A stretch of DNA of 34,195 nucleotides from Eubacteriales Family XIII. Incertae Sedis bacterium (GTDB lineage Bacteria; Bacillota; Clostridia; Peptostreptococcales; Anaerovoracaceae): the NCBI GenBank assembly GCA_031266795.1, contig JAISAI010000015.1, positions 1 through 34,195 of the forward strand, given 5' to 3'. The position numbers and the translations under genes are program-made. Below the pieces are notes generated by a model. It was not told the DNA's origin. It was given only the letters and a program-made list of their open reading frames with translations, and did no database searches. Shown one piece after another: positions 9,135-34,195 of the stretch (position 1 is the stretch's first letter; every line of letters begins with the position of its first letter).

Positions 9135-9174
9135 GATCTTTCTCCTGCAACAAGCCTGTATTGCTTTTAACCAC

Positions 9175-12167: not shown

Positions 12168-12263
12168 TCTCTCTTTACCGGGCTTGCTCTCCTCTGTCAC
12201 CTACCCCTGCTTTGCGCTGCGCCTTAGAGCAAAAACAATGCCAAAGCCATATCGCCGTATCCG

Positions 12264-12284
12264 CGCCCGCGGATCGCGCGGGCG
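12264..12284 (+). terminator. GC-rich hairpin downstream of the ligase gene
   Basis: Perfect 8-bp stem CGCCCGCG / CGCGGGCG around the loop GATCG, about 100 bases after the ligase stop. There is no T-tract after it, so it is at best a weak or factor-assisted terminator separating the regulator-ligase unit from unit A. Confidence 0.35.
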
Positions 12285-12315
12285 GCCTCCCCTTGGTACG
12301 AACGGCGCGTGATAG

Positions 12316-12333
12316 TGGTAGATTTTCGTACCA
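12316..12333 (+). promoter_or_regulatory. Putative activator-binding palindrome (enhancer) for unit A
   Basis: TGGTAGATTTTCGTACCA: outer arms TGGTA and TACCA separated by 8 bases. It lies 72 bases upstream of the sigma-54 -24/-12 element. An additional TTGGTACGAA (12293-12302) is the exact reverse complement of the right-hand TTCGTACCAA (12325-12334), giving a second, wider inverted pair. The same arm-spacing pattern recurs at 20515-20532 and 28285-28302, always ahead of a sigma-54 promoter. The 18-bp size matches known TyrR-family boxes. Confidence 0.75.
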
Positions 12334-12405
12334 ATAAGCCGTTCTTCCCCCCACCGAAATCCGCATCTACGATGAAAATCAGAGAATCCTACGCGTATAT
12401 GCGCA

Positions 12406-12422
12406 TTGGCATAGTATTTGCT
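12406..12422 (+). promoter_or_regulatory. Sigma-54 (-24/-12) promoter of the etfBA unit
   Basis: TTGGCATAGTATTTGCT has the GG and GC dinucleotides 12 bases apart and matches the YTGGCACR-N4-TTGCW consensus except for T in place of C at position 7. Transcription would start near 12433, about 50 bases before the etfB ATG. It should be silent without an enhancer-binding protein. Confidence 0.82.
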
Positions 12423-12484
12423 GACTATGTTCAGGTAAGTAAAATCATTTGACATTGCAATGTGTAGAAACAGGAGGTTGCTTC

Positions 12485-13258: not shown

Positions 13259-13278
13259 GCGAGAAGGAGGGTAAGAAT

Positions 13279-14265: not shown

Positions 14266-14300
14266 CTGCGATAAGGCGTAAGGGAGGATAGAGAAGAATT

Positions 14301-16691: not shown

Positions 16692-16701
16692 GGAGGACAG
16701 C

Positions 16702-17844: not shown

Positions 17845-17875
17845 TGCGGCGTCGGCTTGAAGAGGAGGAACGGCT

Positions 17876-19708: not shown

Positions 19709-19746
19709 AACCGGCGGCTGCGCAGCGGGACAAGGAGGAAAGCGGA

Positions 19747-20502
19747 ATGGATAGAGTGGTTTTGGATATATCGGACGGGGTGGCGAAGATCACGCTGAAC
19801 ACCCCCGATACCTATAACGCGCTGACGAAGGAGATGATCGAGGATCTGTCCGGCGCCTTTAGCAGCATAGAGGAAGACCCGAGCGCGGTCGTGACCGTCG
19901 TCACGGGCGCGGGCAAGGCCTTCGCGGCCGGCGCCGACATAAGCACGTTCCTGACGTCGGATCAGGAGAGTTCACGGGCTATGTCAAAGCTCGGCCAGAA
20001 GGTCTACGAGCGGATTGCAGGCAGCAAGACGGCCGTCATCGCCGCGGTCAACGGCGCTGCGTTTGGCGGCGGGCTCGAGCTGGCGGCTTGCTCTGACATC
20101 AGGCTCGCATCGGAAAAAGCCAAGTTTGGCGCGCAGGAGGCGGCTTGGGGCCTGTTGCCCGGATGGGGCGGCACGCAGCGCCTGCCTTGGCTTGTCGGCA
20201 GGAGCAACGCGATGAAGATACTGCTCACCGGCGACATCTTCGATGCGGACGACGCGTACCGCATGGGCTTGGTCAGCGACGTCTACCCGCCTGACGAATT
20301 CATGGATAAGGTGGAAGGCCTCGCGAAGAAAATCGCACGGAACGGCCCCGACAATATTTACTACATCAAGCGCTGCGTGTCGGAAGGCGCGAGCTATACG
20401 ACGAGCGCCGGCCTCGCGCTGGAGAACGAGTCCTTGGGGCTCTGCTTCCTGAAAGGGATCCCCAAACAAAGAGCGGAAACATTCCTCAATAAGAAAAAAT
20501 AA
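19747..20502 (+). CDS. Enoyl-CoA hydratase (crotonase family)
   Basis: 251-aa crotonase. The oxyanion-hole residues lie in AFAAGADIS (58-66) and AAFGGGLELA. Both catalytic acids are present: Glu111 (GGGLELA) and Glu131 (FGAQEAAWGLLPGWGGTQRL). It should add water to a 2-enoyl-CoA such as crotonyl-CoA and could supply full hydratase activity if the fused crotonase domain at 14301 is weak. It is the last gene of unit A, with AAGGAGG ahead of the ATG. The stop codon lies inside the loop of a 9-bp inverted repeat (20480-20516). Confidence 0.94.
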   Translation: MDRVVLDISDGVAKITLNTPDTYNALTKEMIEDLSGAFSSIEEDPSAVVTVVTGAGKAFAAGADISTFLTSDQESSRAMSKLGQKVYERIAGSKTAVIAAVNGAAFGGGLELAACSDIRLASEKAKFGAQEAAWGLLPGWGGTQRLPWLVGRSNAMKILLTGDIFDADDAYRMGLVSDVYPPDEFMDKVEGLAKKIARNGPDNIYYIKRCVSEGASYTTSAGLALENESLGLCFLKGIPKQRAETFLNKKK

Positions 20503-20516
20503 TGCGCTGAGGAATG
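20480..20516 (+). repeat. 9-bp inverted repeat around the end of the hydratase gene
   Basis: CATTCCTCA (20480-20488) and TGAGGAATG (20508-20516) are perfect reverse complements separated by 19 A-rich bases that include the stop codon at 20500-20502. Its right arm touches the palindrome at 20515. It could be a 3' mRNA hairpin or terminator of unit A without a T-tract, or part of the activator-binding site. Confidence 0.45.
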
Positions 20517-20532
20517 GTAGGTTTTGATACCA
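20515..20532 (+). promoter_or_regulatory. Putative activator-binding palindrome (enhancer) for unit B
   Basis: TGGTAGGTTTTGATACCA, with the same TGGTA/TACCA arms and 8-base spacer as the site at 12316-12333; 14 of 18 positions are identical between the two. It lies 160 bases upstream of the -24/-12 element, a normal distance for sigma-54 enhancers that act by looping. Confidence 0.75.
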
Positions 20533-20692
20533 CCGATTGGTTCAGAAGGCGACCAGTCCGCCACGCGCGACGTCGCCGCAGCCATACGCTACGTATGCGC
20601 GTATGCGGCGTATGATGCAAATAAAGCCGGGAATCAGGCGTTTTTGCGCAATTATCGGCGATGGGCGGATCATGTGGGCAAGGTTTTTTCAA

Positions 20693-20709
20693 GTGGCAAG
20701 GAAATTGCT
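20693..20709 (+). promoter_or_regulatory. Sigma-54 (-24/-12) promoter of unit B
   Basis: GTGGCAAGGAAATTGCT: GG at 20695-20696 and GC at 20707-20708 are exactly 12 bases apart. The -12 box TTGCT is perfect and the -24 box is TGGCA. Transcription would start near 20720, leaving a leader of about 110 bases with a short translated frame. Confidence 0.82.
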
Positions 20710-20804
20710 AATTATCATGTAACACCGCAGGAGGCGCCCGTTTTAGCGCCGGTCATGTGGTTTGGACAGGGTGGGCTCTATGGAATGGGTGGAGGAGTTG
20801 CCGG

Positions 20805-20831
20805 ATGATAAATAAGTATTGGGCTTCCTGA
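20805..20831 (+). CDS. Possible 8-codon leader peptide coupled to the next gene
   Basis: ATG at 20805 follows a strong GGAGGAG (20791-20797) and encodes MINKYWAS before TGA at 20829-20831. The stop overlaps the ATG of the ferredoxin-nitroreductase gene (TGATG), while that gene has no good ribosome binding site of its own. Translation of the leader would therefore feed ribosomes to the main gene. A chance arrangement, or a frameshift in what was once a longer N-terminus, are the alternatives. Confidence 0.4.
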   Translation: MINKYWAS

Positions 20832-21679
20832 TGTCAATTATACGCGTCGACAGGGAGAAGTGCGTTTCATGTTCCGCTTGCACGAAGGTATGCCCCATGG
20901 GCGTCCTTTCCATGGATTTGCGGCTCGGTTCGGGATGTACCCCTATCGACGTGTCCGTTCCCTACGACGCGCATCCCGAGAAGTGCATACGCTGCGGGCA
21001 TTGCGTCGCGGTATGCCCGAAGGAAGCGCTTGACCACAGCAGTGCTCCGCTGTCGGCTCAAGTCCCGCTTCCCGAGGGCTCTACGCTCGACACGGAAACC
21101 GCCGCGCTGTTTCTTCGCAGCCGCCGCTCTGTCCGCAACTACAAGAACGATCCCGTCCCCCGGAATATACTGCTCAGACTGCTTGACATCGCGCGCTTTG
21201 CCCCCTCGGGTACGAATACCCGGGGCTTGAGCTATCTCGTGGTCAGCGATAAAGAGAGATTGGGCCGGGCTACAGGGGCGGTCGTAGATTGGCTGGAGGA
21301 GAAGCTCACGAGGCCCGGTTCGAAGATGCCGGCGGGCTTTTGGGCGCCGGTCGAGGAATACCGCAAAGGCAGGGACACGCTTCTCCGCGGCGCGCCCCAT
21401 CTCATTCTGGCGCTGACGCCGCCGGGGATTCTCGCGGTCAGCACGGACAGCGCGAAGCTCGCTTTGGAGTACGTGGAGCTTCTTGCGCCCACCATGGGCC
21501 TTGGCGCCTGCTGGATGGGTATCGTGCAGCTGTGCGCGGGAAGGAAATACCCGCCTCTGATGGAGGCGCTCGGCATCCCCGAAGACAAAGAAGTGGTCGG
21601 CGCCATCACTGCCGGTTACCCCGTATACCGGTACCGGCGCCTCGTAGACCGCGAGCCGCTTGAGGTCCGGTGGGTATAG
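20831..21679 (+). CDS. Ferredoxin-nitroreductase fusion flavoprotein
   Basis: 282-aa protein with an N-terminal two-cluster ferredoxin (Cys11/14/17/21 and Cys52/55/58/62, both in CX2CX2CX3C order with Pro after the last Cys) and a C-terminal FMN-binding nitroreductase domain (about 90-282) starting with SRRSVRNYK and IARFAPSGTNTRG. Such fusions are common in anaerobes and are thought to pass electrons from ferredoxin to an organic substrate through FMN; the substrate is unknown. As first gene of unit B it may dispose of or supply electrons in the acid-degradation pathway. ATG at 20831 is preferred because it is coupled to the leader frame. A TTG at 20819 would add four residues and lacks a ribosome binding site. 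Confidence 0.88.
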   Translation: MSIIRVDREKCVSCSACTKVCPMGVLSMDLRLGSGCTPIDVSVPYDAHPEKCIRCGHCVAVCPKEALDHSSAPLSAQVPLPEGSTLDTETAALFLRSRRSVRNYKNDPVPRNILLRLLDIARFAPSGTNTRGLSYLVVSDKERLGRATGAVVDWLEEKLTRPGSKMPAGFWAPVEEYRKGRDTLLRGAPHLILALTPPGILAVSTDSAKLALEYVELLAPTMGLGACWMGIVQLCAGRKYPPLMEALGIPEDKEVVGAITAGYPVYRYRRLVDREPLEVRWV

Positions 21680-21729
21680 CCCGTTCGTTATCACTGCGTT
21701 TCATAGCGATGATTAGGAGGAGAACATCA

Positions 21730-22998
21730 ATGGCAAAATCGTATTTTGGGCCGAGGATCCCGTCGTCCGGCCGCCCGGTGGACTATACGGGCAACCTGCT
21801 TGACGTCGACCGCATGCGGCAGGACAGGATGGCCAAAACAAGGCAGTATCTGAAGAAGCACGGCATAGCCGCGGCGCTGCTATTCCGCCCGGAAAACATC
21901 CGCTACGCCGGAAGCACCTACATGATGAATTTCATAGACAGGATCCACTACACGCTGGCATTTGCGGAGCACGCGCCCATACGTTACTGTACGGACGGGC
22001 CGGAAGCCAACAAGGTGCTGACGCCGTGGATTCCCGACGAGAACATCAGGCAGAGCATCCACTGGGCGCAGCAGGCCTGTGGCCCGGGCGCGACCGCACG
22101 CGACAGCAAGCTGTTCGCGCAGGCGATCAAGCAGGATCTCGTGGAACGCGGTTTAGGCAAGGAGCCGCTCGGCATCGACGAGATCGACGAGCCCGGACGC
22201 CAGGCGCTCATTGACGAGGGCATTACGCTTGTAAATGTCCAGCCCGTCATGCTCGAAGCCAGAGCCGTAAAGACAAAGGACGAGATCGCCTGCGTCCATA
22301 TGGTGTCTTCCCTCTGTGACTCGGCTCACTGGGATATGTATAAAGCCCTGCAGCCCGGCATGAAGGACAGCGACATCCGCGCGATAGGATACGAATCGCT
22401 GATCCGCAACGGCGCCGAGGAGATCGCCGACGTGCTCGTCACATCCGGAGGCTTCATAGGCGGCCTTTCGATGGATCGCGACCGCCTCATCCAGCCGGGC
22501 GACATGGTCACGATCGACATCGTGCGCGCCACCTATCTCGGATACTGCTCCTGCTACTACCGCAACTTCCTCGTAGGGCTGAAGCCCACGCAGGCCCAGC
22601 TCGACATCCAGAAGAAGAGCTACGAGCGCGTTTATAGCATCATAGACGGCATCAAGCCCGGGGTTTCCACGGGCGATCTCGCGGAGAAATGGGCCAAGGC
22701 CGAGGAGAAGGGCCTCAGCACGGACCGCACGCTCTGGTGCGACGACCTCATGCACGGCATGGGGCTGTGGCTGTATGAGTACCCCGTCTGCAACAGGATA
22801 TGGTCGATCGAGCATCCGCAGATACTCGAGGAAGGCATGGTGATGGCGGTCGAGGCGATGGAGTTTGACCCGAACATCGGCAGGACAAAGATAGAGGAGA
22901 TGATCGTCGTGACGAAGGACGGCTGCGAAGTATTCAGCCGCATCCCCGTGAAAGAGGTCATGGTTGCCAATCCGTTCACGCTGTACTCAGCGTTCTGA
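21730..22998 (+). CDS. M24-fold (creatinase/Xaa-Pro peptidase-like) protein with altered metal site
   Basis: 422-aa protein with the creatinase N-terminal domain (about 30-175) and the pita-bread M24 domain (about 185-422). Of the usual dimetal ligands, Asp263 (TIDIV), His342 (MHGMG), Glu375 (AVEAME) and Glu389 (IEEMIVV) are in place. The second Asp is replaced by Cys275 (GYCSCYYRNF). The 12-residue spacing from Asp263 to this position is as I recall for the lyase DddP, rather than the 11 of aminopeptidases. It may be a lyase or hydrolase acting on a small organic molecule, not a peptidase. AGGAGG at 21716-21721 sets the ATG; a frame open from 21670 overlaps the previous gene. It sits 50 bases after the ferredoxin-nitroreductase gene, likely in the same operon. 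Confidence 0.85.
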   Translation: MAKSYFGPRIPSSGRPVDYTGNLLDVDRMRQDRMAKTRQYLKKHGIAAALLFRPENIRYAGSTYMMNFIDRIHYTLAFAEHAPIRYCTDGPEANKVLTPWIPDENIRQSIHWAQQACGPGATARDSKLFAQAIKQDLVERGLGKEPLGIDEIDEPGRQALIDEGITLVNVQPVMLEARAVKTKDEIACVHMVSSLCDSAHWDMYKALQPGMKDSDIRAIGYESLIRNGAEEIADVLVTSGGFIGGLSMDRDRLIQPGDMVTIDIVRATYLGYCSCYYRNFLVGLKPTQAQLDIQKKSYERVYSIIDGIKPGVSTGDLAEKWAKAEEKGLSTDRTLWCDDLMHGMGLWLYEYPVCNRIWSIEHPQILEEGMVMAVEAMEFDPNIGRTKIEEMIVVTKDGCEVFSRIPVKEVMVANPFTLYSAF

Positions 22999-23079
22999 CG
23001 GTGCGCTGCAATTATCAGTTAGAGAAGTTTTAATGAGAGGTAATAAGTTGAATTTTAGAGTTTTGAAAGGAGAAAAACA

Positions 23080-24510
23080 ATGCCCAGACTGAAAGTACCC
23101 GAAAAGTGGGATCATGAATGTGACATCCTCGTCATAGGCGGCGGCACCGCGGGGATGCCGGCCGCATTAGCCGCGGCCAAAGCCGGCAATAAGGTGACCA
23201 TCCTCGAGATGATGCAGATATGCGGCGGCAGCGGCAACATCATTGCGGCCGGCGCGTCGTTCGCGGGCACCGAGCTGCAGAAGGAGCTCGGCATACCGGA
23301 CAGCCCGGAGCAATACTACCAAGACGGCATAGGCCCGAACGGCGGCGGCGACCCGGACATCTGGCGCGTCATCGCGGACAACCAACTCGACACGTGGGAA
23401 TGGTTCAAATCCATGGACATCTATCCGGATAACGACCCCGAGTCCGGCCCGATCATCAACAATCCGGGGCACACATACAAGCGTCTGCACCGCTACGCCA
23501 ACGGCCGCAAGGTCGAGCAGCGCATCGAGGAAGAAGTCCGCAAGGCCGGTGTCGAGATACTCTTCGAGCACCGCGCGCTGCGTCTGTACTCCGACCCGGT
23601 GACCGACCGCGTCTTTGGCGCGCAGGTCAAGACAAAGGAGACCGTGAAGAACTTCAAAGCGAGAAAGGCCATCATCCTGACGAGCGGCTCCTTCTCGCGC
23701 AATCCGGATATGGTGTACGAGTACGGCTCGAAGTTCGTGGACGATTCCGTGCTCCCCATCGCGGCGCCCGGACACCTCGGCGACGGCCTGAGGATGGCGA
23801 TGGAGCTCGGCGCAAAGACGAACCATATCGGCGACGCCGCCGTAGGCTCGCTCATATACGACGTGCACTCGAAGAACGACAGGGTGATATTCTTCGTCCA
23901 TTGGGGCGGCGGGATCATCGTCAACTGGAACGGCAAGCGCTTCACGGACGAGAGCTGCCGCGACGGGTTTTACGGCCAGGTCGCCGCTGAGTTCCTCGAC
24001 CAGCCGCGCAAGACGGCGTGGATCATCTACGACGATGAGATGCGCAAGGCGGTACCGCCGCACGACACGAAAGGGCTCAAGGAGTTCAAGGCGGATACGC
24101 TTGAGGAACTGTGCGAGATCACGGGGATCACGAGCGTGGACAACCTTCGCAGCGACATAGAGAAGTACAACGACGATGTCGAGAGCGAAGGCTACGACAC
24201 GGTCTGGGGCCGCAAGCACTTCTGCTGGAACGTCGGCACGCTCGTCCCCATCAAGATGGCGGGCCCGTTCTACGCCATCAACGGCGGTTGCACGACGAGC
24301 TCGTTCAAAGGCGGCATGAAGGTCGACTCGCGCGGCCGGATGCTCAACCAGTTCGACGAGCCTATCCCCGGGCTGTACGCGGCGGGGGAGATCATCGGCG
24401 GGCTGTTCTCACGCGGCATGTACCTCGGCGGCACGAACTGGCAGGGCTTCATGACGCTCGGCCGCGTGACCGGCATGTGGGCCAGCCAGGAACAGGCCTG
24501 GGATAAATAA
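23080..24510 (+). CDS. FAD-dependent oxidoreductase, fumarate-reductase/ketosteroid-dehydrogenase-like
   Basis: 476-aa flavoprotein of the FAD_binding_2 class. The dinucleotide fold VIGGGTAGMPAALAAAKAG begins near residue 17, and the C-terminal FAD contact GLYAAGEIIGG is near 430, followed by LGGTNWQGFMTLGRVTGMWA. It has no signal peptide, Tat motif, haem CXXCH or FMN_bind domain, so it should be a soluble cytoplasmic enzyme, unlike respiratory flavocytochromes. Enzymes of this class reduce enoates (fumarate, urocanate, acrylate-like acids) or introduce double bonds next to ketones. Here, between an M24-fold protein and two MFS carriers, it probably acts on the imported acid or a free-acid intermediate. 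The AAAGGAG box fits the ATG at 23080. Confidence 0.88.
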   Translation: MPRLKVPEKWDHECDILVIGGGTAGMPAALAAAKAGNKVTILEMMQICGGSGNIIAAGASFAGTELQKELGIPDSPEQYYQDGIGPNGGGDPDIWRVIADNQLDTWEWFKSMDIYPDNDPESGPIINNPGHTYKRLHRYANGRKVEQRIEEEVRKAGVEILFEHRALRLYSDPVTDRVFGAQVKTKETVKNFKARKAIILTSGSFSRNPDMVYEYGSKFVDDSVLPIAAPGHLGDGLRMAMELGAKTNHIGDAAVGSLIYDVHSKNDRVIFFVHWGGGIIVNWNGKRFTDESCRDGFYGQVAAEFLDQPRKTAWIIYDDEMRKAVPPHDTKGLKEFKADTLEELCEITGITSVDNLRSDIEKYNDDVESEGYDTVWGRKHFCWNVGTLVPIKMAGPFYAINGGCTTSSFKGGMKVDSRGRMLNQFDEPIPGLYAAGEIIGGLFSRGMYLGGTNWQGFMTLGRVTGMWASQEQAWDK

Positions 24511-24573
24511 TGGCAATACTTTGTTGGTAATCAGTTAGTTGCAGGGATTCATTTAGAAGTATGGAGGTGTAAT

Positions 24574-25869
24574 ATGGCGGAATTAAAGCAGAGCCGGAAT
24601 CCTTGGAGTTTCGGTAGGAAAGGTTGGGGTGTCGCCTTTGCCGGCATCGCGTGTTGGTATTTCTGGCAGGGGCCGCTCTACGCCGGCTCAAATTTCTGGT
24701 TCACCGGCCTGAACGAAATGTTCGGCTGGGAGGTCACCTCAATGGCCGCGGCGCTCACCATAGGCGGTGTCGCTTCGGTATTTACGACCGCGCTGTTCGG
24801 TGGGCTCGTGAAAAAATTCGGTGCGGTCAAAATTATTTTTATCGGTTTCATACTGGCGGCGCTCGTTGACCTCATCTTTGCGTTCGCGCAGACGCTGTGG
24901 GCCTATCAGGTCTCCGCGGCTATCTATTTCGCGATATGTATGAGCTACTCAGCCATCGGCGTCGGCCAGCTCGGCGCGGACTGGTTCCCGCGCAAGAGAG
25001 GCGTGTATATGGGCATCGCCACGGTCGGCATGACGGCCACGACGGCCACGACGCCGTTGCTGCTCTCGATTTTCGTGCCGCAGTTTGGCATCATGGCGAC
25101 TCTGTTGTTCCACAGCGCGTTGCAGATCGTAATAGGTTTCATCATCTTCGCGCTCGTCAAGAACAACCCCGAGGACGCGGGCGCTTATCCCGACAACGAT
25201 AAGTCCGTCTCGAAGGAAGCGCTCATGAAGGAGTTTCAGGAGATGGAGGAGTATCGGAAGAACAGCCCGTGGACGACGAGCGCCTTGCTGAGGGAACCCG
25301 CGACGTGGAAGATCGGCATCGGCTGGGGCCTCTCTATGATGGTCATCGTCGGCACCGTGCAGCAACTCGTCAATATTCTCATCTCCTTCGGACACGATCT
25401 GACCTTTGGCGTGACGCTCATGGCTGTCACCTGGCCGGTAGGCGTATTCGGACACGCTCTCACCGGCGCCATCGACTACAAGATAGGGCCGAGGTGGACA
25501 TCCGCCTTGGCGCTCATCATCGCGATCATAGGCTCGGCGCTTCTGAACGTGGTAGGCACGAGCCCCGTAGGCGCGGGCGCCGCGGGCGGCCTGTTCCTCG
25601 TTGGCGCGACGATGATCACCGTCGAGTGCCCGAGCATGACGACGGCCGCGTTTGGCAGGCGCGACTTCATGAACGCGTGGCCTGTCGTGTCGACGATATA
25701 CCAGCTCCTCACGAACGTCGGCGTCCTCGTCATCGCAGTCATCGCGGCGGCGGTCGGCTACAGCATGGATCTATGGATCATGTGCGGGTTGATGGCCATC
25801 GTTATCATCATCATGCTGTCCGCGCCGAAAGAGCAGGTCACGGCGCCCCAGTTGAAGGCTCAGCCCTGA
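24574..25869 (+). CDS. MFS transporter, organic-acid type (first of two)
   Basis: 431-aa major facilitator with about 12 membrane segments and a charged central loop (about 191-245, KNNPEDAGAYPDNDK...). The motif DWFPRKRGVYMGIATVG after the fourth segment resembles OFA/monocarboxylate-type carriers. It is expected in the cytoplasmic membrane, importing or exchanging an organic acid for the pathway. GGAGGTG precedes the ATG at 24574, and the gap to the flavoprotein gene is 63 bases with no promoter I can defend. A second MFS of different sequence lies at 27033; the two may be an importer and an exporter, or carriers of related substrates. Confidence 0.9.
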   Translation: MAELKQSRNPWSFGRKGWGVAFAGIACWYFWQGPLYAGSNFWFTGLNEMFGWEVTSMAAALTIGGVASVFTTALFGGLVKKFGAVKIIFIGFILAALVDLIFAFAQTLWAYQVSAAIYFAICMSYSAIGVGQLGADWFPRKRGVYMGIATVGMTATTATTPLLLSIFVPQFGIMATLLFHSALQIVIGFIIFALVKNNPEDAGAYPDNDKSVSKEALMKEFQEMEEYRKNSPWTTSALLREPATWKIGIGWGLSMMVIVGTVQQLVNILISFGHDLTFGVTLMAVTWPVGVFGHALTGAIDYKIGPRWTSALALIIAIIGSALLNVVGTSPVGAGAAGGLFLVGATMITVECPSMTTAAFGRRDFMNAWPVVSTIYQLLTNVGVLVIAVIAAAVGYSMDLWIMCGLMAIVIIIMLSAPKEQVTAPQLKAQP

Positions 25870-25910
25870 TCCTGCCGGCATAGTCCATCGTTTAATAATT
25901 ATGATTGTGT

Positions 25911-25936
25911 GCGTTCTCCTCCTCGGGGGAGGACGC
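25911..25936 (+). other. Small hairpin ahead of the alcohol dehydrogenase gene
   Basis: GCGT-TCT-CCTCC pairs with GGAGG-ACGC around the loop TCGGG, leaving a 3-base bulge. It lies 23 bases before the ATG at 25960, just upstream of the AGGAGG box at 25946-25951. It could tune message stability or translation between the two operon halves; no T-tract follows. Confidence 0.3.
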
Positions 25937-25959
25937 ATGTGGGAGAGGAGGACAAGGAC

Positions 25960-26997
25960 ATGAAAGGTTTGGTATGTACGGAGATCGGGAAGGTTCAGCT
26001 TCAGGACGTCCCAAAGCCCGAGATCAAAAATGACGACGAAGCGCTGATCAAGGTGACGAAGTGCACGATATGCGGCAGCGACATCCACCTGATGCACGGA
26101 GGCATCCCATCCACGCCGCCCTATGTGCTCGGTCATGAGTACGTGGGCGTCGTCGAGGAGGTCGGCAAAGGTGTCAAGAAATTCAAGCCGGGCGACCGCG
26201 TCGCGGGCCCGCCTGCCATATTCTGCGGACGCTGCGACAACTGTCAGGCCGGCGCCATCGCGCAGTGCGAACACGGCGGCATCTATGGCTCCGGCCCTAC
26301 GGCCGGCGGCCTGTCCGGCGCTCAGAGCGAGTACATGGTGCTGCCGTATGCGGACAGCAACCAGCTGCACGTGCCCGACAATATGAGCGATGAAGTCGCG
26401 CTGCTCATCTGCGACAATGTCGGCACCGGCTATTTCTCGGTAGCGAACGGCGATCCATCGCCCGGCGACGACATCGTGATCTGGGGCGCGGGCCCTGTCG
26501 GGCTGTGCGCGGTGCAATGCGCGAAAAACCTGTTCGGGCCGTCGAAGGTCATCGTCGTCGACTATATAGACTCGCGCCTCGGGAAGGCGAAGGAGATGGG
26601 CGCGGACTACGTCATAAACGCGAGCGACGACGTCGTTGCGAAGGTGATGGATCTGACGGACGGCAGAGGCGCCAATGTCTGCTCCGAGTGCGCGGGCGAC
26701 CAAAAGTCATTCGCGGAAGCAGTACTGTGCGCCGCCGTGAAAGGTACTGTGTCCGTCGTCGGCATAGGCGAGCGGATGGACATCCCGCTTCCCGACGCCT
26801 TCGTGAAAAACGTGAACGTCAAGATGGGTCTGGGCCTCATCCCCAATTTGAAACGCTTGATGGATCTCGTGGGCAAGGGCGTCATAGACCCCTCGCCGGT
26901 CATCACGCACCGGATCTCGCTCGATGAGATCGAAGCTTACTACCCGAAATTCGAGGCCAGAGAGGACGGCATCATAAAGATAGCAGTCACGCCGTAA
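25960..26997 (+). CDS. Zinc-dependent alcohol dehydrogenase (MDR family)
   Basis: 345-aa medium-chain dehydrogenase. The catalytic zinc ligands are Cys38 (TICGSD) and His59/Glu60 (GHEYVG). A structural zinc site of four Cys (89, 92, 95, 103) is complete. The nucleotide fold GAGPVG is at 176-181, with Asp after the second strand (IVVDYID), which favours NAD over NADP. The closest general type is a secondary-alcohol/threonine-dehydrogenase-like enzyme. In this cluster it may interconvert a hydroxy acid and a keto acid, for example a 4-hydroxy/4-oxo pair feeding the CoA-transferase and dehydratase of unit C; this is inference. AGGAGG at 25946-25951 selects the ATG at 25960 over an in-frame ATG at 25909. 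Confidence 0.92.
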   Translation: MKGLVCTEIGKVQLQDVPKPEIKNDDEALIKVTKCTICGSDIHLMHGGIPSTPPYVLGHEYVGVVEEVGKGVKKFKPGDRVAGPPAIFCGRCDNCQAGAIAQCEHGGIYGSGPTAGGLSGAQSEYMVLPYADSNQLHVPDNMSDEVALLICDNVGTGYFSVANGDPSPGDDIVIWGAGPVGLCAVQCAKNLFGPSKVIVVDYIDSRLGKAKEMGADYVINASDDVVAKVMDLTDGRGANVCSECAGDQKSFAEAVLCAAVKGTVSVVGIGERMDIPLPDAFVKNVNVKMGLGLIPNLKRLMDLVGKGVIDPSPVITHRISLDEIEAYYPKFEAREDGIIKIAVTP

Positions 26998-27032
26998 GGC
27001 GGACGCGGGAGCGATTTGGAGGAAAACCGGGT

Positions 27033-28274
27033 ATGAAGATCCACAAAGCTTGGCTCATGATGGGCGCCTGCTGCGTTTTGATGATGTCCTTGGCGCTGAA
27101 CACCACGTGCCTGTCGCTGTTCACGAAGCCTGTGACGGAGGCGCTTGGTTTTCCCCGCTCTGCTTTCACCGCCTATATCAGCGTAGCCGGCGTCATGACG
27201 GCGGTCGGCGTGACGGTGTGGGGCAGGGTGCTGCCGAGGCTCGGCATGAAAAGGATGATCGTCATCAGCGGCGTGATGATCGGCCTCTGTTTCATACTCG
27301 CGGGCAGGGCCGACAGCTTGTGGCAGTTCTACGTGGTCGGCGTCGTCTTCGGCTTCTTTTCGCCTGCCGTCACCGTGCTGCCGCAGGCGGTGACTATCAA
27401 CAACTGGTTCGTCGAGAAGAAGGGCCTTGCCATGGGTATCACCATGGCGTTTTCCGGCGTGGGCGCGGCTGTTTTCAGCCCCTTGCTGTCCCTTGTTATC
27501 AATTCGCGCGGATGGGAGTGGGGGTACGTCACGATCGGGATCGCCACAATCCTTCTGTCCGTGCCCGTGGCCCTGTTCGTGCTGAAGTCCAATCCCGCTG
27601 AGTTGGGGACGACGCCATACGGCGCGCGTACTGCCGAAGGCCCTCTGGGCGATGCGGGAATTGACCGGTCGGGCGTCCCGTTCGGCGTGGCTGTGAGGTC
27701 GTTCCCGTTTTACGGCGCGCTCATATCCGTGGCGCTCGCGAGCATCGCGGTCGTCAGCCTGTCGCAGCATATCCCGGCGCATTTGGTCAGCAGGGGCTTG
27801 CCCGAGGTGCAGGGCGGCGTAGCCATGTCCATCCTCGCCGTCGGGATGATCTTCGCGAAGGTCGGCCTTGGTTGGCTCAACGACCACGTCGGGACGATGG
27901 CGGGTATGCTCGTCTGCTACGCGCTCGGGTTCGCTGGGCTGTTGCTCATGATACTCGTGAAGGGCGGCGCCATGCCCGTTCCCGCCTTGATCGTGCTCGC
28001 CTGCGGCATCCCCGTCACGACCGTCTGGCCGCCGCTCCTGACCGCAAAGCTGTTCGGGCAGAAGAATTTCCCGAAGATATTTACGTTCATCCAGTCCGTC
28101 GCCATCCTCGGCTACGGCCTCGGGACGCCGCTGTACGGCATGTCGTTCGACAGGACGGGATCCTACGACGCCATGCTGGTCGTCAGCCTTGTCATGATGC
28201 CTGTCGCCGCCGTCCTTCTCGTGCTGAGCATCAGACGCAGCGCCGGGCTCGCGCGGGCGACGGAGACAGAGTGA
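27033..28274 (+). CDS. MFS transporter, organic-acid type (second of two)
   Basis: 413-aa major facilitator with about 12 membrane segments, a short central loop (about 187-220) and the motif NWFVEKKGLAMGITMAFSGVG after the fourth segment, again of the monocarboxylate/OFA-like type. A GGAGG box at 27018-27022 sets the ATG, 35 bases after the alcohol dehydrogenase gene. It ends unit B; the sigma-54 control region of unit C starts within 11 bases of its stop. Substrate unknown. Confidence 0.9.
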   Translation: MKIHKAWLMMGACCVLMMSLALNTTCLSLFTKPVTEALGFPRSAFTAYISVAGVMTAVGVTVWGRVLPRLGMKRMIVISGVMIGLCFILAGRADSLWQFYVVGVVFGFFSPAVTVLPQAVTINNWFVEKKGLAMGITMAFSGVGAAVFSPLLSLVINSRGWEWGYVTIGIATILLSVPVALFVLKSNPAELGTTPYGARTAEGPLGDAGIDRSGVPFGVAVRSFPFYGALISVALASIAVVSLSQHIPAHLVSRGLPEVQGGVAMSILAVGMIFAKVGLGWLNDHVGTMAGMLVCYALGFAGLLLMILVKGGAMPVPALIVLACGIPVTTVWPPLLTAKLFGQKNFPKIFTFIQSVAILGYGLGTPLYGMSFDRTGSYDAMLVVSLVMMPVAAVLLVLSIRRSAGLARATETE

Positions 28275-28284
28275 CGGTGCGCAA

Positions 28285-28302
28285 TGGTACGCTACCGTAC
28301 CG
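28285..28302 (+). promoter_or_regulatory. Putative activator-binding palindrome (enhancer) for unit C
   Basis: TGGTACGCTACCGTACCG: arms TGGTA and TACC(G) with the same 8-base spacer as the sites ahead of units A and B. Its core GGTACG-CTAC-CGTACC is a perfect inverted repeat. It lies 73 bases upstream of the -24/-12 element, almost the same spacing as at unit A (72). The stop of the MFS gene is 10 bases upstream. Confidence 0.75.
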
Positions 28303-28375
28303 AAATATATTCGATAAAGCTACCGATTTCAAGACGCTATGCCGGCGGAATGCCCGAAATCCAACGCACAGGGGA

Positions 28376-28392
28376 TTGGCACAGAAATTGCG
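28376..28392 (+). promoter_or_regulatory. Sigma-54 (-24/-12) promoter of unit C
   Basis: TTGGCACAGAAATTGCG: the -24 box TTGGCACA is a full consensus match, and the -12 box TTGC is exact with G instead of A/T at the last position. GG and GC are 12 bases apart. Transcription would start near 28404, about 60 bases before the gene at 28466. This is the best match of the three promoters. Confidence 0.85.
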
Positions 28393-28465
28393 GTATTGAA
28401 AACATGAAAGAGTCAATTACTATACGATCTATGGTTACTGGATTTTAATAGGAGGTATCGATGAA

Positions 28466-28882
28466 ATGAGCAATGAGATCAAAGTATTAAAGGAGGGCCT
28501 TTTTAAGGAAGAAGACGGCAAGGCGGTGCTGCTGCTCGGGCATTGCCTCGTCTGTGGCACGGCCTTTTTTCCCGAAAGGCCCTTTTGTTCACGCTGCGGT
28601 TCGGATCAGATAGAGCAGGTGAGCGTCAGCGACGGGAAGCTGTATAGTTGGACGACCGTCATCCACCCCTCGCAGGAGAATAAAATGGCGCTTCCCTACG
28701 GGATGGCGAAAGTCGACTTCCCTGACCATAAGATCCGCATCACGGGCGTGAGCACGGAAACGGACAGCGAGAAACTTACGCGAGGCCAGGATATGAGGGT
28801 GGTCGTCGCCAAGGCCTATGAAGACGAAGACGGCAAAGACGTGGTGACGTATATGTTTCAGCCGGTAGAGGAGGGTAAGTAA
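28466..28882 (+). CDS. DUF35 Zn-ribbon / OB-fold acyl-CoA-associated protein
   Basis: 138-aa protein with a rubredoxin-like zinc ribbon (Cys27, Cys30, Cys41, Cys44) followed by an OB-fold (about 50-135). DUF35 proteins are small partners of thiolase-fold enzymes, needed for activity in several systems: the steroid side-chain aldolase Ltp2, the BbsAB pair of anaerobic toluene degradation, and archaeal HMG-CoA formation. The stop TAA is directly followed by the ATG of the thiolase-like gene at 28883, with no gap, so a stable complex is very likely. AGGAGG at 28451-28456 precedes the start; an ATG at 28461 in another frame stops at once. First gene of unit C. Confidence 0.9.
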   Translation: MSNEIKVLKEGLFKEEDGKAVLLLGHCLVCGTAFFPERPFCSRCGSDQIEQVSVSDGKLYSWTTVIHPSQENKMALPYGMAKVDFPDHKIRITGVSTETDSEKLTRGQDMRVVVAKAYEDEDGKDVVTYMFQPVEEGK

Positions 28883-30022
28883 ATGCGTGAAGTTGTTATC
28901 GCAGGTGTAGGGATACACCCTTTCGGAAGGTTTCCGGACAAGGACTATCGTGACCTCGGGCGCGAGGCCACATTGATGGCGCTGAAGGACGCGAATATAC
29001 CGTGGAATGATATTCAGGTCGCCTATGTCGGCAATGTCATGGCGGAGATGACGAAGGGCCATCAGGTTTTGCAGTATTTCGGGCAGACGGGCATACCTAT
29101 CATCAATGTCGAGAACGCTTGCACGAGCGGCTCCGTCGGCATGTGGGCGGCTATGAATTCCATACAGAACGGTCAGTACGATCTCGCTCTCGTGCTCGGG
29201 GTCGAGAAGGCGCCGAAAGGCATGATCGCCAACTGCGGCTATGACCGCTGGCAGATGTACACGGGAACGGGCGCCAATCCCGCCCACTTCGCCATGCAGA
29301 CGAAGGAGACGATGTGGGAGCACGGGCTCGACAAGAGCCATCTCGCGTATATTTCCATACTGAACCACCGCAACGGGGTGAAAAACCCCTACGCCATGTA
29401 CCAAAAGGAATGCACGGCTGAAGAGGTACTGAATTCGCCGATGGTATGCGACCCTCTCACCTTGCTCATGCTCTGCGCGCCGAACGAGGGCGCCGCGGCC
29501 GCGGTCATCGGGACGAAGGAAGCGGTGGCGAAGTACACGAGCAAGTATGTGACGATAGCGGCGTTGGCCTTTCTCACAAAGACCCCCGCCGACTCCATCT
29601 TCCCCGACTTCTCCGTACCCATAGGCACGGATCTCGTGAACATCACGACGCGCGTCTCGGCCTTGGCCTACGAAACGGCCGGCATAGGCCCTGACGACCT
29701 CTCGCTCATCGAGATGCAGGATACGGACAGCGGCTCACAGATACGCGACATGGTGCAGGCCGGGCTCATCAAGCCCGGAGACGTGGCGCGCGCTCTCGCC
29801 GACGGCGATATAGCGCCCACGGGGCGCATCCCCGTCAACGTCAGCGGCGGATTGCTCTCAAAGGGCGAGCCTTTGGGCGCGTCCAGCATGGGGCAGGTTG
29901 TCGAGCTCACGTGGCAATTGCGCGGGGACGCCGGCCCGCGCCAGGTCCCCGGCGCCAAGGCAGGCGCGGGGCATACCCTCGGCGCCGCCGGCAACAGCTG
30001 TTTTATTATTTTAAAGAATTGA
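28883..30022 (+). CDS. Thiolase-fold enzyme (SCP-x/Ltp2-like) paired with the DUF35 protein
   Basis: 379-aa thiolase-like protein of the SCP-x thiolase class. The nucleophile is kept (Cys80 in ENACTSGSVG). The normally invariant His of the GHP motif is Glu329 (SKGEPLGASSMGQ). The C-terminal motif reads AGAGHTLGAAGNS without the second Cys. Such changes argue against ordinary thiolysis of a linear 3-ketoacyl-CoA. DUF35-paired relatives include retro-aldolases and thiolases for bulky or branched acyl-CoAs, so cleavage of an unusual carbon-carbon bond is a fair inference. Translation is coupled to the preceding gene. Confidence 0.87.
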   Translation: MREVVIAGVGIHPFGRFPDKDYRDLGREATLMALKDANIPWNDIQVAYVGNVMAEMTKGHQVLQYFGQTGIPIINVENACTSGSVGMWAAMNSIQNGQYDLALVLGVEKAPKGMIANCGYDRWQMYTGTGANPAHFAMQTKETMWEHGLDKSHLAYISILNHRNGVKNPYAMYQKECTAEEVLNSPMVCDPLTLLMLCAPNEGAAAAVIGTKEAVAKYTSKYVTIAALAFLTKTPADSIFPDFSVPIGTDLVNITTRVSALAYETAGIGPDDLSLIEMQDTDSGSQIRDMVQAGLIKPGDVARALADGDIAPTGRIPVNVSGGLLSKGEPLGASSMGQVVELTWQLRGDAGPRQVPGAKAGAGHTLGAAGNSCFIILKN

Positions 30023-30045
30023 ATTGAGGATAGGAGACAAAGAAA

Positions 30046-31218
30046 ATGGCAGACAGAGATGAAATCATACTCGGTTTTACCGAGGAACAGGTAATGATGC
30101 GGGATATGTTCCGCAAGTTGGCGAAGGACTCGATCGAGCCCCTCGCCGCGGAGATCGACAGAAGCGGCGAGTATCCCGACGCGCTCATTGAAGAGTTCAA
30201 GGAGCTTGGCGTCATGGGGCACGGCTTTCCCGAGGAGTACGGCGGGGGCGGCGGCTCGACGTTCGAGTCGTGTATCATGGTCGAAGAGATCGCGAAGGTA
30301 TGCCACAACTCGGCGATGATGATCGGCCGCCAAGAACTGGCCGGATTCCCGATCATGGTGGCGGGTACGGATGAACAGAAGAAAAAATGGCTGCCGAAGC
30401 TCGCGGGCGTAGAGATCGCTTCGGCGTTCGCGCTGACCGAGCCGGACGCGGGTTCCGACGCGGCCGGAGTGAAGACGAAGGCGGTGAAGCAGGGCACAGA
30501 CTACGTACTGAACGGGTCCAAAAGGTTCATATCGCATTCCGACGTAGCGGACATCATTCTCGTGTTTGCCCGCACCGCGGAGTCCGGCTTTGAGGCCCTG
30601 AGCTGCTTCATAGTCGAGAAGGGTACGCCCGGCTTGACCATTGGAAAGTCGGAAAAAAAGCTCGGCCAGAGAGCCGTGCATTCCTGTGAAATATTCTTTG
30701 ACGACGTCCACGTGCCGGAGGAGAACCTGCTCGGCGGCAAGGAGGGCATCGGCTTCCTGACGGCGATGAAGATCCTCGAGATGACGCGCCCGGTCGTCGG
30801 CGCCGCCGGCGTCGGCCTCGCTGAGGGCGCGCTCGGCTATGCCCTTGATTACGCCAAAGAGCGTATCCAATTCGGCAAGCCCATAGTGGCCTTTCAGGTG
30901 ACGCAATTCAAGATCGCACAGCTTGCGATGGAGATCGAGCAGGCGCGCTGCATGGTCTACGCGGCGGCCAGATGCTGCCAAGCCGGGCTTCCCGAAGCGA
31001 ACAAGCTCGGCGCTATGGCTAAGGTCGCGGGTACGGACATCGCGATGAAAGCATCGCTTGAGGCGATTCAGATCATGGGCGGCTCCGGCTATATGGAGGA
31101 CTATCCCGTGGAAAGGTTCTTCCGCGACGCCAAGCTGCTGCAGATTGTTGAAGGCACAAACGAAATCAATCGTCAGGTCATCGGAAGGGCCGTGATCGGC
31201 AAGCTGCCGAAGAAATAG
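30046..31218 (+). CDS. Acyl-CoA dehydrogenase (short/medium-chain type)
   Basis: 390-aa standard-length acyl-CoA dehydrogenase. ALTEPDAGSDAAGVKTKA (near 130) forms the flavin/substrate loop. IQIMGGSGYMEDYPVERFFRDAK leads into the catalytic Glu369 (IVEGTNEINRQ), the position used by short-chain and glutaryl-type enzymes. It should form a 2,3-double bond in an acyl-CoA, or in reverse reduce crotonyl-CoA, with ETF as partner. It differs from the 610-aa enzyme of unit A, so the island handles at least two acyl-CoA substrates. It starts 23 bases after the thiolase-like gene with a weak AGGAGA box. Confidence 0.95.
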   Translation: MADRDEIILGFTEEQVMMRDMFRKLAKDSIEPLAAEIDRSGEYPDALIEEFKELGVMGHGFPEEYGGGGGSTFESCIMVEEIAKVCHNSAMMIGRQELAGFPIMVAGTDEQKKKWLPKLAGVEIASAFALTEPDAGSDAAGVKTKAVKQGTDYVLNGSKRFISHSDVADIILVFARTAESGFEALSCFIVEKGTPGLTIGKSEKKLGQRAVHSCEIFFDDVHVPEENLLGGKEGIGFLTAMKILEMTRPVVGAAGVGLAEGALGYALDYAKERIQFGKPIVAFQVTQFKIAQLAMEIEQARCMVYAAARCCQAGLPEANKLGAMAKVAGTDIAMKASLEAIQIMGGSGYMEDYPVERFFRDAKLLQIVEGTNEINRQVIGRAVIGKLPKK

Positions 31219-31229
31219 GGAATCGCACT

Positions 31230-32573
31230 ATGATCGTCAAATATAAAAACGAAAAATTCAAGGACGAATACAAGCGGAAGTTGCTATCGCTTGAGGACGC
31301 CGCAAAATTGGTCAATTCAGGCGATCTGCTGATAGGCTCGATGTGTGAGACCGAGGCCACCACGCTGACCGACGAGGTCGGGAAGCGCTCGCTGGCCGGC
31401 GAGATCACGGGCGTCGAATACAACTGCATGGGCCCGCACCGCACGGTGGACTGGATCACGGCGGAGAACAAGAAAAATATGTGGCTCAACGTGAGCTTCG
31501 TTATCAACGCGGAGGCTCGCAAGGCCGTGAACGATGGCGTCGGCGAGTATACGCCCATGCATGCCTTCGACAAACCGGACATCATCATCAATTACAAGAT
31601 CAAAGGCAGGAAACCCGGTACGACGAAGGTACTGCTCGGCGTGTCGCCTATGGACGAGTGGGGGTATTTCTCCACGGGCTCGGCGCCCGGCTACACGCTC
31701 GAACCCGCGCGGGAGGAGAATACGACGGTCGTCGCGCAGGTCAACGAGCATTTGCCCTATGTGTACGGCGACAATTTCATCCACATTTCCGAGATAGACC
31801 ACGTCGTGGAGGACAGTTTTGAGCTGCTCGAGCCGGGGCTCGCCCCCACGACGGATCTCGATATCGCGATCGCCGAGCAGGTCTCGGGATTGGTCGAAGA
31901 CGGCGCGACCATCCAGCTTGGGCTGGGCAGCATGCCAAATGTCCTTGGGCAGATGCTGGCCGACAAGACGGATCTCGGAGCTCATTCCGAGCAGGTGGGC
32001 GACGCGTTCATGGCGCTGTGGGAGGCCGGGGCGCTCACCGGCAACTGTAAGACGGTGAAGCCACGCAAGATCACCGGCTGCTTCTCATTCGGCTCGCGGA
32101 AGATGTACGACTGGATCGACCACAACCCCGCAGTCGAGATGTACTCTCAGAAATGGACGAACGACCCCTTCGTCATCGCGCAGAACTACAAGTTCACGGG
32201 GATCAACCAAGCGCTCGAGATCGACTTCACGGGCCAGATTTCCGCGGAAAGCATGGGCTTCAAGCAGTACAGCGGCACAGGCGGGCAGCCTGCTTTCGTC
32301 GAGGGCGCGAGGAGGTCGCCGGGCGGCAAGTCCATCATCTGCCTGCGCTCGACGGCGAAAGGCGGCACGGTTTCCAATATCGTGCCTTTCCTGAGGCCGG
32401 GCACGGCGGTGACGACGTCGCGCAACGATACGCAGTACGTCGTCACGGAGCACGGTACGGCGCAGCTTGAGGGCAAGACGATCCCGGAACGGGCGAAGGC
32501 GCTCATAGACATCGCGCACCCGGATTTCCGCGAGGAGCTGCGCAGGGAAGCCGAAAAGATAAAGTATCTATAA
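31230..32573 (+). CDS. CoA-transferase, 4-hydroxybutyrate CoA-transferase / acetyl-CoA hydrolase family
   Basis: 447-aa family I CoA-transferase. The catalytic glutamate is Glu254 in LGAHSEQVGDAF, which forms the glutamyl-CoA thioester. The glycine-rich LGLGSMPNVLGQML precedes it, and the C-terminal VVTEHGTAQLEGKTIPERAKALI motif is typical. It would transfer CoA from acetyl-CoA (or another thioester) to an acid. The gene directly after encodes 4-hydroxybutyryl-CoA dehydratase, the pairing found in 4-hydroxybutyrate/aminobutyrate fermentation, so a 4-hydroxy acid is the likely acceptor. The gap to the dehydrogenase is 11 bases with no strong ribosome binding site, so translational coupling is likely. 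Confidence 0.92.
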   Translation: MIVKYKNEKFKDEYKRKLLSLEDAAKLVNSGDLLIGSMCETEATTLTDEVGKRSLAGEITGVEYNCMGPHRTVDWITAENKKNMWLNVSFVINAEARKAVNDGVGEYTPMHAFDKPDIIINYKIKGRKPGTTKVLLGVSPMDEWGYFSTGSAPGYTLEPAREENTTVVAQVNEHLPYVYGDNFIHISEIDHVVEDSFELLEPGLAPTTDLDIAIAEQVSGLVEDGATIQLGLGSMPNVLGQMLADKTDLGAHSEQVGDAFMALWEAGALTGNCKTVKPRKITGCFSFGSRKMYDWIDHNPAVEMYSQKWTNDPFVIAQNYKFTGINQALEIDFTGQISAESMGFKQYSGTGGQPAFVEGARRSPGGKSIICLRSTAKGGTVSNIVPFLRPGTAVTTSRNDTQYVVTEHGTAQLEGKTIPERAKALIDIAHPDFREELRREAEKIKYL

Positions 32574-32648
32574 AGAACAGAACTTCATTCGATAGCGTTC
32601 GCCCAACGGTGAGGAGGCGGGCGCTTACCTTATAAGGAGGAATACCAG

Positions 32649-34195
32649 ATGGCAATAGGATCAGCGGAGGCTTTCCGTGAAAGGCTGAACAATATGAAGC
32701 CCAACGTGTACATCGACGGCAAGGCCGTCGATCGTACGGGGAGTTGGAACGACGCCGGTTACGGCTGTATGAAGATCACCTATGATATGTGCAACGAAGC
32801 CGAGTTTGAGGACGTCTGCACGGCGACGTCGCATCTGACGGGTGAAAAGGTCAGCCGCTTCAACCATATCCATCAAAGCAAGGAAGACCTTCTGAAAAAA
32901 CAGCTGATGACGAGGCTGCTCTGCCACCGCGTCGGAGGCTGTACGCAACGCTGCATGGGCGTCGACGCGCTGAACGCCTTGGCCGTCGTGACGCACGACT
33001 GCGACGAGGCGTGCGGCACGGAGTATGAGGCGCGCTTCGAGAAATACCTGTTGTATTGCCAAGCCAACGACTTGGTTCACAACTGCGCGCAGACCGACGT
33101 GAAGGGCTCGCGCAATCCCAAGTACAAGAGGGCGCACCAACAGCCCGACCCGGATCAATTCCTGCACATCGTCGAGACGGGCGTGGACGGCGTCGGGCTT
33201 GACGGCAAGCCGACAAAGGGCATCATCGTCCGCGGCGCGAAGGTCTGCAACTCCTGTGCGCCGTACGTGGACGAGATCATCGCGACGCCGACGAAATTCA
33301 TGGGCAAGGGGGATGAGGCATACGCCGTTTCATTCGCGCTTCCGGCCGACTGGGACGGCGTCATGCTCATGGCCCTGCCGGGCCTTCACCATAAGAGATC
33401 GCGTCTGGAGGCGCCGTACGCCAATGCGGGCGACGTCGAATCCATGACGATATTCAATGATGTCTTCGTACCGGACGAGCGGGTCTTCCTGAACGGCCTC
33501 GACACGCCCGACGTCGTGCAGTACGCGGGCTACCTCGCCCTCATGTTCGCGCATTTCCATCGCCATTCCTACTGCGGATGCAAGGCCGCCATCTCCGAGA
33601 TCATCGCGGCGCAGGCCGCCCTGATCGCGGATGTCAACGACATCGCGAAGGAACACCATGTCAGGGAGAAGCTGAGCGACCTCGTCGGAACGGCGGAGCT
33701 CGTATTCGCCGCGGGCCAGGCCGCCGCGCACCGCGCGGTGCAGTTCCCGAACGGTTCCTATGTCCCGGACGAGATACTGACGAACGCGGGGCGCAAGCTC
33801 GCGGGGACGAAGATATACCACGAGTATGAGATACTGGCCGACCTCACCGGGGGCATCTGCGCCTCACTTCCGACGGAGGAATGTTTCTTCGCTCCGGAAA
33901 CCGCGGAATTGGTCAACAAATACATCATGCGCAACCCGGACTACACGGCCGAGGAGACTCATAGGGTGCTGCGCATGATGGAGAACAGGCTATGCGATCC
34001 CTTCGAGGCGGCGCAGGCGGTCGCGGGAGTGCACGGCGGCGGATCCCCTCTGATGGAAACCATCACGATGATGAGCCGCTACGACCTCGATCCTTTGAAG
34101 CAGATAGCGAAGTACCTCGCCGGCTTCCCCGGAGTGGAGTGCCCGAGGTTTGAGCGCGAAACGGTGACGCCGCGCAAGATGCTGGAGCGCTTCCA
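32649..34195 (+). CDS. abfD: 4-hydroxybutyryl-CoA dehydratase / vinylacetyl-CoA isomerase, 3' end outside window
   Basis: The frame is open for 515 codons to the window end, so only the C-terminus is missing. It belongs to the HpaB-like flavoprotein family and carries the [4Fe-4S] ligand pattern of 4-hydroxybutyryl-CoA dehydratase: Cys98 and Cys102 (GGCTQRCMG, CX3C), then His304 and Cys311 (FHRHSYCGCK, HX6C). Tyr308 and Lys312 match other active-site residues. The enzyme dehydrates 4-hydroxybutyryl-CoA to crotonyl-CoA by a ketyl-radical route and is oxygen sensitive. AAGGAGG at 32635-32641 selects the ATG at 32649. Crotonyl-CoA would enter the hydratase, dehydrogenase and thiolase steps of unit A. 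Relatives acting on other 4-hydroxyacyl-CoAs are possible. Confidence 0.92.
   Translation, partial: MAIGSAEAFRERLNNMKPNVYIDGKAVDRTGSWNDAGYGCMKITYDMCNEAEFEDVCTATSHLTGEKVSRFNHIHQSKEDLLKKQLMTRLLCHRVGGCTQRCMGVDALNALAVVTHDCDEACGTEYEARFEKYLLYCQANDLVHNCAQTDVKGSRNPKYKRAHQQPDPDQFLHIVETGVDGVGLDGKPTKGIIVRGAKVCNSCAPYVDEIIATPTKFMGKGDEAYAVSFALPADWDGVMLMALPGLHHKRSRLEAPYANAGDVESMTIFNDVFVPDERVFLNGLDTPDVVQYAGYLALMFAHFHRHSYCGCKAAISEIIAAQAALIADVNDIAKEHHVREKLSDLVGTAELVFAAGQAAAHRAVQFPNGSYVPDEILTNAGRKLAGTKIYHEYEILADLTGGICASLPTEECFFAPETAELVNKYIMRNPDYTAEETHRVLRMMENRLCDPFEAAQAVAGVHGGGSPLMETITMMSRYDLDPLKQIAKYLAGFPGVECPRFERETVTPRKMLERF

Follow-up and report, generated by a model that had tools for sequence, protein, structure and literature searches.

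What reactions are encoded where a relative of 4-hydroxybutyryl-CoA dehydratase (4HBD) and a CoA-transferase lie beside a DUF35 protein, a thiolase-fold protein, and an acyl-CoA dehydrogenase (ACAD)? The question is raised by unit C, the last gene group of contig JAISAI010000015.1 from an Eubacteriales Family XIII. Incertae Sedis bacterium. This entire contig of 34,195 nucleotides, hereafter the window, belongs to a metagenome-assembled genome (MAG; GCA_031266795.1) of 1.81 Mb in 142 contigs that is 74% complete. Our overall reading, to which we give about even chances, is that unit C belongs to a catabolic regulon that is inducible, depends on sigma-54, and comprises three transcription units; this regulon would serve an acid that plain beta-oxidation cannot finish and would employ an atypical C-C cleavage.

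Unit C consists of five forward-strand open reading frames (ORFs; 28466-34193) with intergenic gaps of 0, 23, 11, and 75 nt. Based upon Pfam, NCBIfam, and PDB searches, these encode a DUF35 protein with a C4 zinc ribbon and an OB fold (28466-28882; Pfam zf-ChsH2/OB_ChsH2_C), its thiolase-fold partner, here called ThlX (28883-30022; Pfam Thiolase_N/Thiolase_C_1), an ACAD of the short/branched-chain type (30046-31218; Pfam and NCBIfam), a family I CoA-transferase of the 4-hydroxybutyrate/butyrate type (31230-32573; Pfam AcetylCoA_hydro(+C)), and a 4HBD-like FAD/[4Fe-4S] protein without E455 (32649-34195; Pfam HpaB_N/HpaB), whose gene is truncated by the end of the contig. The dehydrogenase scores 395 bits as an acryloyl-CoA reductase and 359 bits as a cyclohexane-1-carbonyl-CoA dehydrogenase, both under cut-off. 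A first-pass annotation made from the letters of the sequence had placed the five genes in one operon, and the ORFs, their spacing, and the family matches agree with that assignment.

The same annotation placed unit C under common control with beta-oxidation genes, a flavoprotein, and two major facilitator superfamily (MFS) carriers. Upstream of these genes lie those for a sigma-54 enhancer-binding activator (9267-10601, + strand; AAA+ and helix-turn-helix domains; NCBIfam PrdR 343 bits, NifA 310 bits), whose translation contains GAFTGA and whose true start is likely 9303, and for an AMP-forming acyl-CoA ligase (10629-12167, + strand; family match). Downstream of the ligase, the row of genes is interrupted by three non-coding gaps longer than 190 nt, which precede the genes for EtfB (gap 1, 12168-12448), a ferredoxin-nitroreductase (gap 2, 20503-20818), and DUF35 (gap 3, 28275-28465). 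Unit 1 (12449-20502, + strand) encodes EtfB, EtfA, a FadB-like fusion of hydroxyacyl-CoA dehydrogenase (HCDH) and enoyl-CoA hydratase (ECH), a thiolase, a 610-residue ACAD, and an ECH. Unit 2 (20819-28274, + strand) encodes the ferredoxin-nitroreductase, an M24 hydrolase, an FAD flavoprotein resembling fumarate/urocanate reductases, an MFS carrier, a zinc-dependent alcohol dehydrogenase (Zn-ADH), and a second MFS carrier.

Each gap carries one operator palindrome, namely GGTAGATTTTCGTACC (12317-12332), GGTAGGTTTTGATACC (20516-20531), and GGTACGCTACCGTACC (28286-28301), followed at 90, 178, and 91 nt, respectively, by a forward sigma-54 -24/-12 element, namely TGGCATAGTATTTGCT (12407-12422), TGGCAAGGAAATTGCT (20694-20709), and TGGCACAGAAATTGCG (28377-28392), the last lying 74 nt ahead of the DUF35 gene. 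These elements are the three best + strand sites in a sigma-54 scan of the window. Against an expectation of 0.14, the promoter pattern TGGCA-N6-TTGC has four matches on the two strands of the 34 kb, three of them on the + strand and all four inside the three gaps; the operator pattern GGTA-N8-TACC has three (0.08 expected), one per gap, although the palindrome came to attention through visual inspection of the gaps and its chance estimate is therefore after the fact. Outside the window, the assembled genome shows the combined pattern just twice, inside unrelated ORFs which, from their translations, are fructose-bisphosphatase-like and XdhC-like. A sigma-54 gene (rpoN) was found in the genome, so that the features of a sigma-54 regulon, -24/-12 promoters, a GAFTGA activator, and rpoN, are all present. 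With an operator/promoter pair in each of three gaps, beyond chance, the proposed common control is borne out. Gap 1 also holds a leftward element on the - strand, TGGCATTGTTTTTGCT (12228-12243), antisense to the 3' end of the ligase gene and as far from the palindrome as the forward element; it may be a bidirectional or antisense promoter, or the relic of a divergent operon.

An independent test of the operator is offered by Peptococcaceae bacterium BRH_c4a, in which the activator (46% identity), ligase (49%), DUF35 (41%), ThlX (66%), and ACAD (53%) genes occur in the same order, with the ligase ortholog directly behind the activator and with no beta-oxidation genes. A slightly looser motif, GGTW-N8-WACC, has three sites in this 21 kb locus, all in two regulatory gaps. 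Two of these sites precede the activator gene, and the third precedes DUF35 and is followed after 78 nt by a sigma-54 element. A genome-wide scan of BRH_c4a for an upstream activator sequence combined with a sigma-54 element gave ten matches, two in the regulatory gaps of the locus and eight that may be chance. Gene order being kept at 41-66% identity, the conserved core of the regulon consists of the activator, ligase, DUF35, ThlX, and dehydrogenase; together with the operator/promoter pairs in all three gaps of the window, this conservation marks unit C as a genuine regulon member at the sequence level. At 6088-6168 of the BRH_c4a locus, an operator and a sigma-54-like site also face a divergent ABC transporter of the LivKHMGF (branched-chain-amino-acid) type, which suggests that this transporter may import the substrate.

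The thiolase-fold enzyme, described as unusual in the first-pass annotation, proved more unusual than claimed. ThlX keeps the nucleophilic cysteine (NACxSG), but the thiolase motifs HDxF and GHP read QDTD and GEP in this protein, so that both catalytic histidines of thiolases are replaced. The DUF35-linked thiolase-fold paralogues Ltp2 and Sal are aldolases with the motif YD[HC][FY] (PMC12329534); this motif and its catalytic tyrosine are absent from ThlX, which has QDTD at that place. Fifteen sequences from Bacillota, Actinomycetota, Acidobacteriota, and Myxococcota form a monophyletic ThlX clade (support 99/99), and all have the cysteine in N/ExxC, APNEG, QDTD, and GEP[LV]GAS. Relatives outside the clade have DG for EG, HDxx or YDxx for QDTD, and GH for GE, and some (L024-L029) also lack the cysteine. 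The scan patterns contained two of the clade motifs, so this invariance is partly ascertained; as counterchecks, L083, found by a hidden Markov model in another sample, shares the motifs, and L020-L029, recovered by the same scan, do not have them. An AlphaFold model of ThlX (pLDDT 90.5; TM about 0.9 to SCP2-thiolase and BbsB) best matches SCP2-thiolase, the archaeal thiolase/HMG-CoA synthase, and BbsB, and the Ltp2 and Sal aldolases rank lower.

A DUF35 gene adjoins nearly every QDTD/GEP ThlX copy, in the window and at least 11 other loci, and ten aligned partners keep the C4 zinc ribbon with C27, C30, C41, and C44 invariant. The steroid aldolases Ltp2-ChsH2 (6ok1) and Sal-Shy (9myr) likewise combine a DUF35 partner with a thiolase fold devoid of the thiolase residues, but they are only about 20% identical, have YDHF/YDCY in place of QDTD, and, in Shy, a C3H1 rather than a C4 zinc site. 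The benzoylsuccinyl-CoA thiolase BbsAB (7pxp) and the archaeal thiolase/HMG-CoA synthase complex (6esq) rank with the closest matches both in fold and in DUF35 sequence, yet BbsB keeps HDxF and GHP in the alignment. The neighbors of ThlX vary among loci and include ACADs, a CaiB-type CoA-transferase, a MaoC hydratase, and a short-chain dehydrogenase/reductase (SDR; L009 and L011). These neighborhoods give a catabolic impression and point to no shared substrate. In two actinomycetotal loci (L013 and L015) the ThlX-DUF35 pair lies beside the large and small subunits of a B12-dependent acyl-CoA mutase, at L013 also beside a MeaB-like protein. At L091 its neighbors are two proteins of CoA-transferase type that resemble the ring hydrolases IpdAB, another CoA-transferase pair, MaoC, SDRs, a TRAP binding protein, and a sigma-54 activator. 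Plasmids searched with the ThlX protein gave no match above 60% identity, nor did plasmids searched with the 4HBD-like protein.

The 4HBD-like protein had been taken for a normal 4-hydroxyacyl-CoA dehydratase, an assignment that is not supported. Its closest solved relative is the dehydratase AbfD of C. aminobutyricum (1u8v), at 34% identity. Both share the HpaB fold, the [4Fe-4S] ligands (C99, C103, H292, and C299), Q101, E257, Y296, and K300, but in the window protein E455 is replaced by Ala, M149 by Gln, and T190 by Ser. In the C. aminobutyricum enzyme, E455 deprotonates Y296 and is required; Zhang and colleagues reportedly found in 2015 that its E455Q variant has no measurable hydratase activity. 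Fourteen relatives at 50-79% identity from other Bacillota have likewise lost E455 (to Ala, Ser, or Gly) and share the Gln at M149, versus 19 canonical copies from the window's own order, 34-38% identical to the window protein, which have Glu at 455 and canonical residues; a 100/100 branch splits the two sets. Judged against a 527-residue relative at 79% identity (L063, genome G664), the window protein has lost about 12 residues to the contig end.

Elsewhere in the MAG, contig C137 ends in the gene for a canonical AbfD that shares 82% identity with its C. aminobutyricum counterpart. This gene is split over C137 and C95, whose ends share its sequence, and on C95 its 3' part with E455 is followed by a CoA-transferase and an iron-type alcohol dehydrogenase (ADH). 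Because E455 is lost, the clade is separate, and a canonical AbfD lies elsewhere in the MAG, the window gene appears to be neither the genome's 4-hydroxybutyrate enzyme nor a normal family member, and the label 4-hydroxyacyl-CoA dehydratase is too specific for it. The unit C CoA-transferase is 37% identical to the copy on C95. Its closest solved relatives are the 4-hydroxybutyrate CoA-transferases 3eh7, 9vag, and 3gk7; the family I match is full-length, and its score of 293 bits lies under the 675-bit cut-off for butyryl-CoA:acetate CoA-transferase. Its HSEQ aligns with HTEM of 3eh7 and keeps the glutamate of the H(S/T)E motif, the active-site residue of these enzymes.

In other Bacillota, the neighbors of the E455-less clade are ligase, HCDH, ECH, thiolase, MaoC, CaiB, or ACAD genes. 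Genome G664, with the nearest copy, also has counterparts of the 610-residue ACAD (66%), EtfA (62%), and EtfB (53%). In genome G626, a 66% identical gene clusters with BKACE, a carnitine-dehydrogenase-like HCDH, and an M24 protein (27% identical to the window's), followed further on by a glycyl radical enzyme and its activase. The conversion of gamma-butyrobetaine to trimethylamine offers a related idea, the flavoenzyme-catalyzed C4 elimination from an acyl-CoA; its enzyme BbuA has been likened to 4HBD yet shares only about 10% identity with it (PMC8364193). This route was considered and set aside, no BbuA search having been made. The literature on anaerobic levulinate and 4-hydroxyvalerate routes and on 4HBD homologues yielded no matching pathway.

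The sequence itself shows how the regulon is laid out, which families it encodes, which residues have changed, and which core is conserved; beyond this, the following course of events may be envisaged. When an organic acid substrate is present, the activator would bind the GGTA-N8-TACC operators and turn on the three units. The acid would be taken up by an MFS carrier, converted to its CoA thioester by either the ligase or the CoA-transferase, and oxidized at the alpha-beta position to an enoyl-CoA by the unit C dehydrogenase, with electrons passing through Etf. After hydration, DUF35-ThlX would, by analogy, split a C-C bond of a beta-substituted acyl-CoA non-thiolytically, most likely by a retro-aldol or retro-Claisen reaction, with the Zn-ADH handling a carbonyl product. 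The 4HBD-like protein could, again by analogy, use its flavin and Fe-S cluster to eliminate a group or shift a double bond at the gamma position, after which the remaining chain would enter the beta-oxidation of unit 1. A gamma-substituted or branched substrate is a reasonable guess. Of the proposals in the first-pass annotation, the single operon, the regulation shared with beta-oxidation, flavoprotein, and carriers, and an uncharacterized catabolic route are supported.

Several observations weigh against this scheme. Unit C has no dedicated MaoC hydratase. Since ThlX has neither the aldolase motif nor the thiolase histidines, a retro-aldol reaction can be proposed for it by analogy only. The 4HBD-like gene is found in none of 11 other genomes with a QDTD/GEP ThlX, although the query matched in other samples, and the nine genomes that have ThlX in a phylum sample of the same size do not include G664; among the genomes sampled, this one alone appears to combine both proteins.

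Four other explanations deserve consideration. A beta-oxidation regulon for unsaturated or odd-chain fatty acids would accord with the full Etf/FadB/thiolase/ACAD set of unit 1. In that case the 4HBD-like protein would be no more than a delta3-delta2 enoyl-CoA isomerase (of the vinylacetyl-CoA type), and ThlX would be a thiolase acting on chains of uncommon length. 4HBD does have isomerase activity, and the E455-less clade is found among beta-oxidation genes; yet unit 1 already provides an ordinary thiolase, ThlX lacks both catalytic histidines, and BRH_c4a retains activator, ligase, and DUF35-ThlX-ACAD with no beta-oxidation genes; we consider this explanation rather unlikely. We judge it improbable that unit C is a second copy of an ordinary operon for 4-hydroxybutyrate (4-aminobutyrate/succinate) fermentation. 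The adjoining CoA-transferase and the retained Fe-S ligands, Q101, E257, Y296, and K300 speak for such a copy; the 34% identity to 1u8v, the changes at E455 and M149, the separate clade, the canonical AbfD, CoA-transferase, and iron-type ADH already on C137/C95, and the DUF35-ThlX and ACAD partners, which have no role in that pathway, speak against it.

The DUF35 architecture and the nucleophilic cysteine also recall PhlABC and HMG-CoA synthase complexes, and the pair might accordingly form C-C bonds in biosynthesis. This is quite improbable, however, given the mostly catabolic neighbors (ACADs, hydratases, CoA activation) at the loci inspected and a regulation that appears substrate-inducible. 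Chance neighborhood or a misassembled contig end might be suspected in an incomplete MAG whose whole gene combination recurs in no other genome searched, but the third-codon-position G+C content (GC3) is even across the window, the promoter and operator of unit C resemble those of the other two units, and relatives of the 4HBD-like protein, the 610-residue ACAD, and Etf cluster together in G664; we consider it very improbable.

From 9267 to the window end every gene lies on the + strand. Positions 1-7312 encode an FTR1-type iron permease, a periplasmic metal protein, a membrane protein, two FtsX-type permeases, an ABC ATPase, and a small lipoprotein with an FMN-bind-like stretch at its C-terminus; from the translations, this looks like an iron-uptake cluster. 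Between it and the regulon lies an AAA-ATPase/PD-(D/E)XK-like protein (7476-9335, - strand; likewise from its translation). An Rfam scan detected no RNA element, and the gap sequences show no unusual folding. The full operon, sought in the genus at the DNA level, gave just short pieces of 64-83% identity from common families.

ThlX and the 4HBD-like protein are, by their sequences, divergent members of known superfamilies. We suggest, tentatively and with somewhat less than even confidence, that DUF35-ThlX with QDTD/GEP may be a new type of thiolase-fold C-C lyase in the four phyla named above, that the E455-less clade may catalyze a gamma-elimination or isomerization other than 4-hydroxybutyryl-CoA dehydration, and that the two may be joined here in a single anaerobic pathway of acid degradation, so far undescribed and equipped with its own operator. 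A vague pathway guess is thereby turned into testable terms: a set of defined operator and promoter sequences, a five-gene conserved core, and two enzyme clades. Automatic annotation would call these clades thiolase and 4-hydroxybutyryl-CoA dehydratase despite the missing residues that those functions need. Because close relatives of the 4HBD-like protein occur in about 30 of 398 sampled Bacillota genomes, predictions of 4-hydroxybutyrate pathways built on E455-less homologues may be wrong.

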